Assembly (NCBI GenBank): GCA_025351825.1
Contig: JANXVE010000094.1
Location: forward strand, 1 to 64,000
Reading direction: 5' to 3'
DNA from: Chamaesiphon sp. 341R_metabat_111
GTDB taxonomy: Bacteria; Cyanobacteriota; Cyanobacteriia; Cyanobacteriales; Chamaesiphonaceae
DNA length: 64,000 bases
In this document: in pieces, positions 2,351 to 29,809 of the stretch
Layout: every line of letters starts with the position of its first letter
How positions within the stretch are numbered: the stretch's first letter is position 1
The notes under the pieces: generated by a model
The model's database searches: none
The model's input: only the letters and a program-made list of their open reading frames with translations
Told to the model about the DNA's origin: nothing
Program-made: the position numbers and the translations under genes

Positions 2351-2426
2351 TCAGATCTACGCTTTCACTAGCCTTCAGATATTGTCTTCAATCTTTTTAT
2401 CAACCTAAAGCTCAGGTGTGCTCCCA

Positions 2427-2804
2427 ATGCAACTTAAATCAATCTGTGGATCGATCTTCGCCATCCTCGTGGCAACCCAAGTCACCCCCGCCTCCGCTCA
2501 ATTAGTGCCCGAACCTTGGGTCACAGTCGGTTCTAAAGATAGTACCGTCACTTATGGTGCTGGGGTGAGATTTTTCGATCTGGGAGCTGAAATCGGCACG
2601 GGACCAAAAGGTGTTACCGGAGTTGACGCACTCAAGTTTTTTAGCTTACCGTTTGTGGCTCCCTATGCTGGGTTGGGACTCTATGGCGACAAAGGCATTG
2701 CCTATTCTGGTGGCGTTCACTTTACTCCCCCTGGCAATATTTTTTATGGCGTTGGCTATCACTCGATTCGCGGTATTAATGGTCAACTGGGGATTAAGTT
2801 TTAG
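2427..2804 (+). CDS. Small exported glycine-rich protein, possible outer-membrane-like
   Basis: About 125 residues when started at ATG 2427 (an in-frame GTG nine bases upstream is the alternative). Residues 1-25 form a signal peptide (MQLKSICGSIFAILVATQVT, then PASA-QL, a likely AxA cleavage). The mature part is rich in Gly, Tyr and Phe with short alternating strands (YGAGVRFF, YAGLGLYG, IAYSGGVHF, IFYGVGYHS) ending in Phe, which suggests beta-barrel-like or surface beta structure. I do not recognise a family. It stands alone between two repeat-bearing gaps. Confidence 0.6.
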   Translation: MQLKSICGSIFAILVATQVTPASAQLVPEPWVTVGSKDSTVTYGAGVRFFDLGAEIGTGPKGVTGVDALKFFSLPFVAPYAGLGLYGDKGIAYSGGVHFTPPGNIFYGVGYHSIRGINGQLGIKF

Positions 2805-2847
2805 ATCGTTGTTAGAATTAAAGTGTTAATCGATCCGATCGCAACTT

Positions 2848-3495
2848 ATGATTTTAAGCTCCCAACAACGCCGCAAATTAGATACTGGTAACGATCGAGA
2901 GTTTTATGATGTACCTCGATTTGTTACCCATGTAGATGGCGGTTTTATCGATCGATTGACCAATTTATATCAAGACAGACTTACGCCGAATACACGGATT
3001 TTTGACATGATGAGTAGTTGGGTGTCTCATCTCCCCGACGATCTCCAGTTTGAGCATATTTATGGGCATGGCTTGAATGGTGAAGAACTCGCCAAAAATC
3101 CCCGCCTGGATGAATACTTCGTTCAGAATCTCAATCAAGACCAGAAAATACCCCTCGCCGATGCTAGCGTTGATGCTGTCCTAAATACTGTCTCTGTCCA
3201 GTATCTCCAATACCCTGAAGCGATTTTCGCCGAAGTTTATCGGATTCTCAAGCCAGATGGCATTGCGATCTTTAGCTTTTCCAATCGGATGTTCTATCAC
3301 AAAGCGATCGAAGCTTGGCGGGATGGCAGTGAGATCGATCGAGTAGAATTAGTCAAAGGTTATTTCCAATCTGTCTCAGGCTTTAGCGAACCCGAATCGA
3401 TCGTTCATGTTAGTCAAGTACCAGATTTTCTCCGCATGGTTGGCATCTCTGGCGGCGATCCTTTTTATGCGGTAATTGCCAAGAAAATTGGTTAA
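2848..3495 (+). CDS. SAM-dependent methyltransferase (class I, methyltransf_11-like)
   Basis: A 215-residue protein. The N-terminal third carries a conserved-looking segment (FDMMSSWVSHLP) and the central part has the post-motif-III signature of small-molecule methyltransferases, PLADASVDAVLNTVSVQYL, then AEVYRILKPDGIAIFSFSNR. The canonical glycine-rich SAM-binding motif I is weak: the expected position reads FEHIYGHGLNGEEL, with a degenerate glycine loop. Proteins of this type are common in cyanobacteria; the substrate is unknown. It converges with folD across a strong hairpin element. Confidence 0.75.
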   Translation: MILSSQQRRKLDTGNDREFYDVPRFVTHVDGGFIDRLTNLYQDRLTPNTRIFDMMSSWVSHLPDDLQFEHIYGHGLNGEELAKNPRLDEYFVQNLNQDQKIPLADASVDAVLNTVSVQYLQYPEAIFAEVYRILKPDGIAIFSFSNRMFYHKAIEAWRDGSEIDRVELVKGYFQSVSGFSEPESIVHVSQVPDFLRMVGISGGDPFYAVIAKKIG

Positions 3496-3511
3496 TAAGT
3501 TATCTCCCGCT

Positions 3512-3656
3512 CAAAATTTAGGGTAGGGGCAATGTCTTGTCGGTTTTTTATTCTGCGGCGTTTCTATTCAGGGGTTCCCCCCGAATAAAGAAACGTCAAG
3601 ACGGGGAACCCCAGAATAAAACCGCCGCTTCATGAATTGCCCATACCCTAAATTTT
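3512..3656. repeat. Composite long inverted repeat, likely bidirectional terminator
   Basis: The outer arms, 3512-3533 and 3635-3656, are 22 bp inverted repeats (CAAAATTTAGGGTAGGGGCA and its complement) with one mismatch. Inside lies a nested inverted repeat formed by CGGTTTTTTATTCTG and CAGAATAAAACCG, plus GGGGTTCCCC-type palindromes. The inner GCGGCGTTT-TATTC piece recurs near 48407. It separates two convergent genes (methyltransferase and folD), so it may end both transcripts. Confidence 0.7.
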
Positions 3657-3662
3657 GGGTAC

Positions 3663-4547
3663 TCAACTCAACCCATGTGAATTGGCATAACTCCACACCG
3701 TATTTTCCAATAGCATCGTCACCGTCATTGCCCCCACCCCGCCAGGTACAGGCGTGATCCAACTCGCCACATTCTTTACGCTCTCAAAATCCACATCCCC
3801 AACTAACCGCGACTTCCCAGTACTAGGACCCTCGATCCGATTAATCCCCACATCAATTACCACCGCCCCAGGCTTAACCATCGCCGCTGTGATCATTTGG
3901 GTTCGCCCTACCGCCGCCACCAAGATATCTGCTTCCCTACATACAGCCGCAATGTCCGGTGTCCGCGAATGCGCGATCGTCACTGTAGCATCAGCAGCCA
4001 GTAACATCAAAGCCAGCGGCTTACCAACTAAAATACTCCGCCCCACTACTACAGCATGTTTGCCACGAGGATCTAGCTGATACTCCGCCAGCAGTCGCAT
4101 TACGCCCCCAGGCGTGCAGCTTTGTAGCCCAGGCTCTCCGCGCACCAATCGGCCCAAATTGAGGGCATGAAGACCATCTACGTCCTTGTGGGGGGCGATC
4201 TCATGCAAGAGTGCCACCGAATCCAATCCATCCGGCAAGGGTAACTGTACCAAAATCCCATCGACTCGATCGTCAGCATTTAATTCATGGATGATTGCGG
4301 TCAATTTTTCCTGGCTGACATCAGCAGGAAAATGCTGCCCAAACGACCTCACACCCACCTTGGTACAGGCGCGCTCCTTGCCCCCAACATAGGCAGCACT
4401 CGCCGGATTATCTCCCACCATCAAAACTGCTAATCCAGGTGGGCGACCAATTTGGGGTTCCAATTTGGCAATTCGCTGTTGCAATGTCTCCTGCATTTTC
4501 TGAGCCAGTGCTTTACCATCGAGAATCTGACCAGTATTTGTGCTCAT
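3663..4547 (-). CDS. folD: Bifunctional methylenetetrahydrofolate dehydrogenase/cyclohydrolase
   Basis: FolD interconverts 5,10-methylene-THF, methenyl-THF and 10-formyl-THF in the cytosol, feeding purine and formyl-Met synthesis. The 294-residue length is typical. Visible signatures are the substrate loop [13 protein letters not shown] with the catalytic Lys, the [11 protein letters not shown] motif, and the NADP-binding [17 protein letters not shown]. The C-terminus carries the family motif [19 protein letters not shown]. The start at 4547 gives [15 protein letters not shown], matching the family N-terminus. With metF (11714) it is the second folate one-carbon gene in the window, and gcvHP adds a third, though they are not adjacent. 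Confidence 0.95.
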
Positions 4548-21875: not shown

Positions 21876-21970
21876 TGTGAGGAGTGTATTGGGTTAGAGC
21901 TGCTCCGCCAACATTCTTCAATCCAACCTACATATTTAGGCACTGACGTTGCTACCTATTAAATATATAA

Positions 21971-23113
21971 ATGCTAAGTAAATTAGAGCTTCACAACTTC
22001 AAAAGCCATCATCAGACACAGTTCAATTTTGACAATTCTCGTTTACAAGCATTGATAGGCAAGAATGGTTCAGGTAAAACTTCAGTTCTACAATCACTAT
22101 ATTGGCTCAGTCAGCTTTCAACAGCAACAGATCCAAAGAGTAAAATTTTGTACGATACAATCCTTGAGATTGGTCTAGATTATGGAACAATCGATCGGAG
22201 CAAGATGATTGTCGTCGGCAGCGGATACTGGGAGAATAATACTCAAGAACATTGGCAGTTTTCCTATGAATTTCACAGAAGATCTAGTGATTTCTGGAAG
22301 CCAATTAATAGAACCTGGATTAATAATGGAGAAAAAATAATAATTGAAACAACACAGGCACAAAGCTCATCTATAGTTATCCCTCCAGAGCTAAAGTTTA
22401 CAACCCACCTAAAATTAAACGTGGGCAACTTAGCAAAGGCATCCTACAGTGAAGAAATCATCCCCAAAATTCAGTTCGATGGTTCTGGATTAGCACCAAT
22501 ACTAGATTACCTCCGCAGCGAAGCTCCAGAGCGATTTCAAGATATCCAGGGAATGTTGCAGCAGATCGTTCCAGGTGTCCGAAGAATAGGGATAAGAAGA
22601 GCAAAAGTTAAGATCGATCGGCAGAGATCGATCGAGGTTGATGGTAAGTCTATCTCCTATGAGGAAAATCAAGAAGTTGTCGGACAAGAAATTGTGCTAG
22701 ACATGAATACAGGAAATCGCATTCCTGCTCATGCGATTAGTGAAGGGACGATGCTAACCTTGGGCTTGCTTACCGTGCTAATGAATCCTAAACAGCCAAA
22801 CTTAGTATTACTAGATGATATCGAACAGGGACTTCACCCCAAGGCACAACGAGAGTTAATTACCGTCTTTAAGCAAATCATTCAAGCTAATCCAAATTTA
22901 CAGATTATCTTTACTACTCACTCGCCATATATCATTGATGAACTTGAACCTTCTCAAGTTCATGTTTTGAGTAACTCTAAGTCTGGGTTCACTCATGCGA
23001 AGCGGCTAGACGAACATCCTGATGCAGAATGGGCAAAACAAACTTTGACCACTGGAGAATTTTGGAATGCGGAAGGAGAAGATTGGGTGGTTGATGGAGA
23101 TGTGAATGATTGA
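21971..23113 (+). CDS. AAA/ABC-type ATPase, RecF/OLD-like (AAA_21 group)
   Basis: A 380-residue ATPase of the SMC/RecF/OLD type. Walker A is GKNGSGKT at residues 30-37, directly after the KLELHNFKSHHQTQF start typical of this group. The ABC signature region is AISEGTMLTLGLLTVL (255-270), Walker B is LVLLDDIEQGLHP (278-290) and the His switch is TTHSPYIIDEL (315-325). The central part (60-250) is a variable insert. It overlaps the next gene by 8 bp, so the two are translationally coupled. The pair is AT-richer than its neighbours. ATPases paired with nuclease-like partners are common in phage defence, such as PARIS and OLD-type systems; that role is inferred here. Confidence 0.85.
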   Translation: MLSKLELHNFKSHHQTQFNFDNSRLQALIGKNGSGKTSVLQSLYWLSQLSTATDPKSKILYDTILEIGLDYGTIDRSKMIVVGSGYWENNTQEHWQFSYEFHRRSSDFWKPINRTWINNGEKIIIETTQAQSSSIVIPPELKFTTHLKLNVGNLAKASYSEEIIPKIQFDGSGLAPILDYLRSEAPERFQDIQGMLQQIVPGVRRIGIRRAKVKIDRQRSIEVDGKSISYEENQEVVGQEIVLDMNTGNRIPAHAISEGTMLTLGLLTVLMNPKQPNLVLLDDIEQGLHPKAQRELITVFKQIIQANPNLQIIFTTHSPYIIDELEPSQVHVLSNSKSGFTHAKRLDEHPDAEWAKQTLTTGEFWNAEGEDWVVDGDVND

Positions 23114-23885
23114 GGTTGTTGTAATCGTTGAAAGTAGAATGGACGCAGTTACTGCTAAAAAATTAGCAGAGCGTGTGCTTGTAGAAAAGATCGATTGGCT
23201 AGAGGAAGATAATCTACAACATCTCTTCAAATGGACTGGTTTAGAATCAGGAACAGAGCATTCTTGTTGGAAAGATATTAATGATATTATTGATCGTGCT
23301 GAAAAAGATGGTATCCCCAAACCTCGATATTTAGGTCACGGTAAAACTAGTAAATTAAGAGCTGATGGTGCTGCCGCGTTGAAGATTTTAAAATTAAGTA
23401 AACTTCTTCATCACAAAAAGAAGCGAGAAATTGCCGCAGTTGTCTTTATTCGGGATGTGGATAATCAACCAGAAAGAAAGCAAGGAATCGAGCAAGCACG
23501 CTTAGAACACACTGAAGATCGACCTTGCATCGAAATTGTCATTGGTGTAGCCGATCGAATGCGAGAAGCTTGGATTCTTAACGGTTTTACACCATTGAAT
23601 GTAGCAGAAAAACAAACTCTAGCACAAATCAAAGCTAACTTAAGTTTCGATCCTTGTGAAGAGGCTCATCGATTACGCGACAAGCCAGGTGAGGAGAGAA
23701 ACCCTAAATTAGTCCTCAAGAGACTTACAGGTGGCAATATTATCCGTGAACAGCAATGTTGGGAAGAAACCGATCTAGAAATTCTTCGATCGAGAGGAGC
23801 GAATACAGGGTTGCAAGAATATCTGCATGAAGTTGAGCAACGATTGATATCTATACTCGTTCGCGTTGGCGGAGCCTGCCGTTAG
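23106..23885 (+). CDS. TOPRIM-like / DUF4276-resembling partner of the ATPase
   Basis: A 259-residue protein. It opens MIEVVVIVESRMDAVTAKKL, where Glu9 fits the first acidic residue of a TOPRIM fold, and has VVFIRDVDNQPERKQGIEQA with Asp117-x-Asp119 as the likely DxD. The segment RMREAWILNGF (151-161) resembles a motif of DUF4276-type TOPRIM proteins found beside AAA ATPases. It starts inside the ATPase stop region, implying coupled expression and a complex. The last residues, LVRVGGACR, come from a GTTGGCGGAGCC-type repeat, so the native C-terminus may have been changed. Nuclease or RNA-cleaving activity is inference only. Confidence 0.6.
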   Translation: MIEVVVIVESRMDAVTAKKLAERVLVEKIDWLEEDNLQHLFKWTGLESGTEHSCWKDINDIIDRAEKDGIPKPRYLGHGKTSKLRADGAAALKILKLSKLLHHKKKREIAAVVFIRDVDNQPERKQGIEQARLEHTEDRPCIEIVIGVADRMREAWILNGFTPLNVAEKQTLAQIKANLSFDPCEEAHRLRDKPGEERNPKLVLKRLTGGNIIREQQCWEETDLEILRSRGANTGLQEYLHEVEQRLISILVRVGGACR

Positions 23886-24083
23886 GCGCAGCCTAATCGA
23901 TCTGATTTATAGGGAGATTGATTTGCGCTAGATCGAAAATGCAATACTAATGACTTCGTAACACGAGCGACGATTACCTTTTGGGAACGCTACGCAAACA
24001 ATCGTGCGGTATTCGATCGAAATTGGCTGGCGATCGGAATCCAACACGCTAAAATGTCTATAGCCCTGTAATTGGGATCGAGT

Positions 24084-24713
24084 ATGACCTCAACGCTAAT
24101 TCAAAGCCCAAATCGGGTAGTTCTCAAGCATATTAGTTGGCAGAGTTATCAATCTCTGATTGTTGACTTTGAGCCAGACCCAGCAATTCGACTAACTTAC
24201 GATCGTGGTACTCTCGAAATCCGTATGCCGCTCGCGCCACATGAAACCTATAAAAAAATTCTCGGTCGCCTAATTGAAGCAGCAACAGAAGAACTCGACC
24301 TCGAAATTCGCAGTTTGGGTTCGCTCACTTGTAGCAGAGAAGATCTCGCGAAAGGATTGGAACCAGACCAATGTTATTACATCCAAAATGAGGAAAAGGT
24401 ACGGGGTCTCGACCAAATCGATCTGGGAAAATTACCACCACCTGATTTGGCAGTAGAAATCGATATTACTAGTAGCTCTCTCGATAGATTCTCAATTTAT
24501 GCTGACCTAAAACTTCCAGAAATTTGGCGATATGACGGACGATCTCTAGTTATTTATGGGTTGGTTGAAAGCGAATATGTCATCAGAGATCGTAGTATTG
24601 CTCTGCCAATATTGAGAACAGAAGATGTTTTGCGGTTTTTGAGTTTGTCCGTATCAATTGGTGAAAATAGTCTAATCAAACAATTTCGTCAGTGGCTAAA
24701 ATCTGCTCGATAA
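24084..24713 (+). CDS. Uma2 family (DUF820) putative restriction endonuclease-like protein
   Basis: From ATG 24084, 209 residues; an in-frame TTG four codons upstream is less likely. The Uma2 fold is a PD-(D/E)XK nuclease relative greatly expanded in cyanobacteria. Conserved parts are the start (ISWQSYQSLI), LTYDRGTLEIRMPLAPHE, EPDQCYYI, PPDLAVEIDITSSSLDRF with the catalytic Asp/Glu, and LPEIWRYDGRSLVIYGL. Activity and target are unknown. It is probably independent of the ATPase pair 200 bp upstream. It converges with rnj and shares a hairpin terminator with it. Confidence 0.88.
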   Translation: MTSTLIQSPNRVVLKHISWQSYQSLIVDFEPDPAIRLTYDRGTLEIRMPLAPHETYKKILGRLIEAATEELDLEIRSLGSLTCSREDLAKGLEPDQCYYIQNEEKVRGLDQIDLGKLPPPDLAVEIDITSSSLDRFSIYADLKLPEIWRYDGRSLVIYGLVESEYVIRDRSIALPILRTEDVLRFLSLSVSIGENSLIKQFRQWLKSAR

Positions 24714-24790
24714 ATTCTAAGCTAGATCGAGATCTAATTAGACTCATCAGCAGTTGTTCGCGTTAACTGCTGCTCGTACTAGAGTCAATA

Positions 24791-24836
24791 AAATTCAGGG
24801 TAGGAGCAACTCATTAATTGCTCCTACCCTGAATTT
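24791..24836. terminator. Bidirectional hairpin terminator
   Basis: A perfect 19-bp inverted repeat (AAATTCAGGGTAGGAGCAA and its complement, 8-base loop) lies between the convergent Uma2 and rnj genes and is bordered by A and T runs on both sides. Related GGTAGGGGCAA-type palindromes lie at 3512-3656 and 32904-32949. Confidence 0.88.
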
Positions 24837-24888
24837 TTATGCTTTAAATTAGCAAGTGATAATTTTACTTGCTAATAGCAGATTAAGC

Positions 24889-29260: not shown

Positions 29261-29809
29261 ATGAGTATAACTATCGCTAAATGGACGATCGAGCAGTATC
29301 ATAAACTCGTTAATGCAGGCATGTTAATCGATCGGCGGGTGGAGTTATTAGCAGGAAATATCATTGAAATGTCACCAGAAGGAATGTTTCATGCCGTATA
29401 TTGTGGCGATGCGGTGGACTATCTCAAGCAGTTATTAGGCAATAGAGCTAAAGTTCGTGAAGCTCACCCAATCACCCTACCCAATGATTCAGAACCAGAA
29501 CCAGATATTGCCGTAGTGAAACCTTCACCCACCCGATATTTAGATCGTCACCCCTATCCAGCCGATGTATTTTGGTTAGTTGAATATGCAGATAGTACAC
29601 TTACCAAGGATCTAAATATCAAACAGCAGATTTATGCTGCTGCTGGGATTCAGGAATACTGGATTGTCAATTTACAAGCATTAGAATTGATTGTATTTCG
29701 TGATATGGATCATGATGGCTATAAAACAGAAACTAGATTCAGCACGGGACATATTTCACCATTATCTTTTCCTGAAGTTGAGATTGAAGTTAAACGATTA
29801 TTTAGCTGA
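29261..29809 (+). CDS. Uma2 family (DUF820) protein
   Basis: A 182-residue member of the Uma2 PD-(D/E)XK-like family, the second in this window. Motifs are KWTIEQYHKLVNAGMLIDRR, VELLAGNIIEMSPEG, EPEPDIAVVKPSP and FWLVEYADSTLTKD, then YAAAGIQEYWIVNLQALELI. It overlaps the convergent methyltransferase gene by 12 bp at the 3' end, so the two transcripts face each other. Function unknown. Confidence 0.88.
   Translation: MSITIAKWTIEQYHKLVNAGMLIDRRVELLAGNIIEMSPEGMFHAVYCGDAVDYLKQLLGNRAKVREAHPITLPNDSEPEPDIAVVKPSPTRYLDRHPYPADVFWLVEYADSTLTKDLNIKQQIYAAAGIQEYWIVNLQALELIVFRDMDHDGYKTETRFSTGHISPLSFPEVEIEVKRLFS

Follow-up and report, generated by a model that had tools for sequence, protein, structure and literature searches.

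AAA ATPases paired with RloB or TOPRIM_OLD proteins behave as antitoxin and toxin in neutralisation tests, in AbiL the toxicity comes from the effector AbiLii, and the AriA and AriB genes of PARIS have the same two-gene layout (PMC10440598). AriB, the TOPRIM effector of PARIS, cuts tRNA (PMC12409363), and split ATPase/TOPRIM genes of this kind have been named class 4 OLD (PMC10568477). The window, that is, the whole stretch of 64,000 nucleotides analysed here, contains two overlapping genes, called A and B below, which lie next to each other as follows.

21971..23113, plus strand: gene A, SMC/RecF/PtuA-type ABC ATPase of 380 aa (AAA_21 match and Foldseek)
23106..23885, plus strand: gene B, probable TOPRIM-type effector of 259 aa, without a Pfam family
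23106..23113, plus strand: 8-bp stop/start overlap of A and B, of ATGAATGA type (ATGNNTGA)

Only a small number of cyanobacterial defence systems have been characterised so far. The first-pass annotation had placed two open reading frames with 8 bp in common at these positions, and both are present there. We consider it fairly probable that A and B constitute a horizontally moving two-gene conflict module, in which an ATPase sensor and a TOPRIM-type effector would stop growth before phage release.

The ATPase and its Walker B motif

Three motifs of A are listed below.

22058..22081, plus strand: Walker A motif GKNGSGKT, residues 30-37 of A (G30, N32, G35 and K36 invariant in 16 homologues)
22736..22750, plus strand: ABC signature-like motif ISEGT, residues 256-260 of A (S257, G259 and T260 invariant in 16 homologues)
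22802..22840, plus strand: Walker B motif LVLLDDIEQGLHP, residues 278-290 of A (D282 and D283 invariant in 16 homologues)

The first-pass annotation had recognised an SMC/RecF-type ATPase from the two Walker motifs, and the Pfam search agrees, with AAA_21 as a match (E 3.7e-31) and AAA_15 and SMC_N matching as well. The AlphaFold model of A (pLDDT 73) found its best PDB matches in PtuA of Septu and of retron Ec78/Eco7 and in SMC/Rad50 heads, with a Foldseek probability of 1.00. The protein stops shortly past the ATPase core, so A has no TOPRIM domain of its own.

The Walker B motif of A reads LLDDIEQGLHP, with an Asp-Asp acidic pair where Asp-Glu is usual, a feature on which the first-pass annotation made no comment. 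In the alignment of 16 homologues Asp283 occupies the usual position of the catalytic Glu and is invariant, and the Asp-Asp pair is present at loci L191 and L192 too. The corresponding site is Asp-Glu in the aligned PtuA chain and in the ATPases adjoining at least 12 DUF4276 genes. As judged from these alignments, Asp-Asp in place of Asp-Glu is a hallmark of the A family, and the invariant Asp283 at the catalytic Glu position suggests that ATP hydrolysis by A may be slow or arrested. The pair would show clearly whether ATP binding is enough for ATPases of this type to retain an effector and let it go, or whether turnover is required.

The partner protein and its TOPRIM-like acids

Gene B returned no match in the Pfam, NCBIfam or PHROG families, and its closest named relative, from a Chamaesiphon sp., shares 73% identity with it. 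The residues on which its assignment depends are listed below.

23130..23132, plus strand: Glu9 of B, right after strand 1 (invariant; AlphaFold strand 2-8)
23454..23462, plus strand: Asp117-Val-Asp119 of B at the end of strand 3, within RDxDNQ (both Asp invariant; AlphaFold strand 109-117)
23562..23573, plus strand: REAW of B, residues 153-156, past strand 4 (invariant; in register with the E-x-W of RloB and HEC-01B/DUF4276)

Glu9, Asp13, Asp117, Asp119 and Arg-Glu-Ala-Trp 153-156 do not vary among 14 sequences that share 42-71% identity with the window protein, and two further acidobacterial homologues likewise keep Glu9 and the D-x-D. The Glu9 and D-x-D pointed out by the first-pass annotation are thus conserved down to 42% identity, and their presence is not chance. 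The REAW motif aligns with the E-x-W found in RloB (FElWyl) and in HEC-01B/DUF4276 (ELEsW). The AlphaFold model of B (pLDDT 87, pTM 0.85) has the fold order b1-a-b2-a-b3-a-b4, with strands at residues 2-8, 41-44, 109-117 and 143-149, Glu9 following b1 and the D-x-D closing b3, and TOPRIM proteins have this same order of strands and acids. Foldseek of B against the PDB listed no TOPRIM match, though AriB and OLD structures exist, its search of BFVD gave nothing significant, and the B profile had no match among PDB sequences. Because the fold searches returned no match, a TOPRIM fold of B is regarded as probable rather than proven.

The alignment of B by hhalign with the RloB, DUF4276 and HEC-01B sets gave no significant score and was mostly no better than column-shuffled controls, and a decoy-based HMM test was adopted for this reason, in which the decoys were 270 ORFs, unrelated and 140-450 aa long, taken from the same loci. 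The RloB and HEC-01B_a models each separated B from these 270 decoys with an AUC of 0.96, the B model separated HEC-01B and RloB with AUCs of 0.91 and 0.86, and the DUF4276 sets were weaker (0.54-0.81, the DUF4276 core set only 0.54-0.64), all of these being figures that overstate independence, as the test sequences are interrelated. D119, E154 and W156 were jointly aligned in 7 of 22 HEC-01B sequences, 2 of 23 RloB sequences and none of 211 decoys. Since the sequences in the HMM test are not independent, the link of B to RloB and HEC-01B is read as a probable kinship and not as proof.

It is improbable, in our judgement, that B is a nuclease or another enzyme of a non-TOPRIM fold whose acids are coincidental, in a pair that would still serve defence in the way the Septu ATPase does with its HNH partner. 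The missing Foldseek match and Pfam family of B agree with such an enzyme, and so does the structural closeness of A to PtuA of Septu and retrons, but the strand and acid order of the modelled B fits TOPRIM, and its motifs are in register with those of RloB and HEC-01B.

The end of the window copy of B (ILVRVGGACR) and its stop codon sit in a palindrome-like stretch at 23850-23900, GCGTTGGCGGAGCCTGCCGTTAGGCGCAGCC, which resembles a dispersed cyanobacterial repeat, and the C-terminus of this copy is unlike that of the aligned homologues.

Pairing, mobility and decay

The overlap ATGNNTGA is kept in 8 of 8 aligned homologues, which come from cyanobacteria, one gammaproteobacterium and one acidobacterium, and it suggests translational coupling of the two genes. 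Every B that is intact has an A immediately upstream of it, apart from copies at contig ends. A promoter scan gave no more than shuffled sequences did. Homologues of B in core positions without the ATPase, which the first-pass annotation had named as evidence against its idea, were sought and none was seen. It had also suggested looking for conserved gene pairs in other cyanobacteria, and the pair or its remnants were found in 22 of the 386 cyanobacterial genomes sampled (~6%), in 14 of 100 relatives, 3 of 297 genomes from the phylum of a Blastocatellia genome and 1 of 360 genomes from the class of a Methylococcaceae genome. The plasmid, phage and viral-contig collections searched held no copy of the pair. 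Gene neighbourhoods of the pair vary between genomes, and a comparison with the sister genome G001 delimits the following segment in the window.

21876..24788, no strand assigned: segment with A, B and Uma2, absent in sister genome G001 (ends approximate)
24072..24713, plus strand: Uma2-family protein (PF05685, E 9.4e-18; PADLOC candidate PDC-S17, E 6.6e-40), inside this low-G+C segment

The distance from the TPR gene to rnj is 121 bp in G001 and 3 kb in the window, where it includes A, B and Uma2, and the flanking proteins of the two genomes are 93% and 98% identical. The AT-richness reported for the pair was borne out by the G+C content of A (40.2%) and B (40.8%) against 49.0% and 48.8% in the flanks, and it extends beyond the pair into Uma2 (41.7%), so that the whole segment has 40-42% G+C and its flanks 49%. 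When terminal repeats of the inserted segment were sought, only an 8-bp direct match was seen, and it was taken as chance. G345 has the neighbours found on either side of the pair in G312, but between them a deletion has left a scar of 39 codons from the start of A and 41 from the end of B. The A-B pair is mobile, and its copies decay.

A strong 20-bp hairpin lies at 24790-24837 between the insert and rnj. G001 has a similar one in its interval from the TPR gene to rnj, which places the insertion upstream of the hairpin. G066 has, some 7 kb away from an intact copy, a further and broken one (locus L031, 5232-5694) that comprises the end of A and the start of B. A malic-enzyme gene adjoins the pair in two Acidobacteriota (L191, 5529-6956; L193, 8699-10129), on the upstream side of the pair in one and on its downstream side in the other.

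Several copies of the pair have Uma2 genes nearby. The Uma2 family is very common in cyanobacteria and was left out of the module for this reason, and the Uma2 gene of the segment is probably a neighbour only. A second Uma2-family gene at 29261-29809 (PADLOC candidate PDC-S03) has, like the first, about 40-42% G+C. The 115 neighbours at 28 loci are mostly ordinary genes, and the defence matches among them are few, namely one each of a type II methyltransferase, AbiU, AbiLi and AbiLii, and Uma2 eight times. At L021 of Okeania sp. an AbiL-type pair of AAA_21 and RloB genes (2380-4306) lies 0.6 kb upstream of the A-B pair. The loci thus show some defence association and form no classical island.

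Ordinary neighbour genes, the SMC/Rad50 kind of A and the cell-cycle role described for an archaeal OLD-family ATPase (PMC12796447) would suit a function in cellular DNA repair or chromosome upkeep, with A as a RecF/Rad50-like ATPase, B as a processing nuclease and no part in defence. We hold this to be very improbable, as the pair occurs in only ~6% of cyanobacterial genomes, at changing sites and with frequent decay. A role of the A-B pair in defence seems likely by analogy with its relatives.

At eight loci just one partner is broken. It is A at L026 and B at the other seven, namely L023 (where B contains an IS66 transposase), L034, L037, L073, L075, L201 and L209. Under length-proportional decay, a 7:1 loss of B has P = 0.009 if the eight events are independent, a value that overstates independence because the sequences are interrelated. 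The dN/dS of A is ~0.12 between pairs retaining B, and where B is gone it is 0.27-0.42 in three comparisons and 0.12-0.16 in the others. Decay and dN/dS together agree, weakly, with B being an effector that carries a cost and A the partner that restrains it.

The tendency of B to go first would also be expected of a toxin-antitoxin pair with B as toxin and A as antitoxin, kept mainly for its own persistence and with little anti-phage role, and this reading shares with ours the overlapping genes and the mobility, in addition to the neutralisation tests in which pairs of AAA ATPases and TOPRIM_OLD proteins act as toxin-antitoxin systems (PMC10440598). We consider it unlikely, because addiction modules usually abound on plasmids and phages, where no copy of the pair was found in the collections searched, and because the ATPase-sensor architecture is common to proven defence systems.

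For the defence module that we favour, the antitoxin and toxin behaviour of the relatives and the cutting of tRNA by AriB suggest by analogy that A would restrain and sense while B would cut, and we infer on the same grounds the nuclease activity and toxicity of B, its triggering by phage and its substrate. A would be an ABC ATPase of the PtuA/RecF kind, would dimerise and would serve as sensor, scaffold and restraint, and B a small TOPRIM-type metal-dependent nuclease with Glu9, Asp117 and Asp119 as putative metal ligands. B would be held by A, its synthesis kept in step with that of A through the overlapping start codon, until the ATP-bound clamp of A meets a phage product or damaged nucleic acid. 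B would then be freed or activated, and it may cut tRNA or DNA and so halt growth ahead of phage release.

Comparison with described systems

In PADLOC, A matched HEC-01A with E 1.8e-34, as a HEC-01 ATPase should, though the ATPase models of PADLOC cross-match widely, and it also matched mad3 (1.2e-25, residues 1-367) and AriA. B matched mad4 (6.3e-6) and, in several members, HEC-01B (E 0.003-0.02), and both partners therefore indicate the same gene pairs. Matches of the mad4 model occur also in B. subtilis, Thermus and Lactococcus, and what this model recognises may mainly be a general TOPRIM start.

Of MADS, the pair resembles only a part, A matching mad3 along its length and B the start of mad4. 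The 10 window neighbours tested, which flank the pair, gave no further mad match, and the score of A with NCBIfam MAD3, 83.6 bits, is below the cut-off of 420. MADS proper, in which mad3 and mad4 belong to an operon of several mad genes, was rejected as a name. PARIS and class 4 OLD share with the pair the split adjacent genes with the ATPase first, the TOPRIM fold of B being probable only. Neither B nor 13 homologues had a DUF4435 or AriB match in Pfam and PADLOC, and since the AriA matches resemble those of the generic AAA_21 and AAA_15 models in scores and coordinates, they are little evidence for PARIS. Septu has in PtuA the nearest fold to A, and B is without the HNH domain that defines PtuB. 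For Gabija and class 2 OLD, no TOPRIM is fused to the 380-aa A, and the genes that follow it are B and Uma2, not a GajB helicase. PARIS, Septu and Gabija were likewise rejected as names for the pair.

HEC-01 is alike in that its HEC-01A is the closest PADLOC match of A and in its order of ATPase then effector, and HEC-01/DUF4276 proteins have the best motif register with B. In cyanobacteria, one subgroup of DUF4276 genes also comes after an ATPase gene, with a Walker B ~280 bp ahead of where DUF4276 starts, which is close to the 300 bp before B here. In contrast to these pairs, B matches HEC-01B only at E 0.003-0.02 and is not matched by DUF4276, and the ATPases beside DUF4276 carry Asp-Glu. 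No gene of Hma, the system in which HEC-01 is embedded, was seen among the 10 window neighbours tested, which flank the pair. RloAB/AbiL, with AbiLi as ATPase and AbiLii as RloB, likewise has an adjacent AAA_21 ATPase followed by a small TOPRIM-type protein, and a weak alignment of B with RloB includes the Asp of the third strand and the E-x-W, whereas the Asp-Asp Walker B of A is a difference. Membership was rejected because B is below the cut-off of Pfam RloB (PF13707), with one member only giving a match, at E 0.051.

The first-pass annotation had proposed a related but not identical split ATPase and TOPRIM-like system, and this stands as the best-supported reading through the strict pairing, the patchy mobile distribution and the HMM links, weak yet convergent, of A and B to mad3-mad4 and HEC-01A-HEC-01B and of B to RloB; its TOPRIM part gained neither a Foldseek match nor a significant profile-profile score, and the loci are not clear defence islands. 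A bolder version, which we find possible but doubtful, is that B founds a separate TOPRIM or TOPRIM-like family working with an A whose Asp-for-Glu Walker B makes it a slow or locked ATP clamp, and that the two represent a distinct, mostly cyanobacterial class of split immunity. A compact pair that combines an effector without a Pfam, NCBIfam or PHROG name and a consistent change in the ATPase active site would extend by one branch the ATPase-TOPRIM systems, to which PARIS, AbiL and the OLD nucleases belong. On our best reading, which infers anti-phage activity by analogy, the A-B pair is a divergent ATPase and TOPRIM-effector defence module that would work like AbiL, RloAB and PARIS, and it looks like a previously unnamed cousin of these three.
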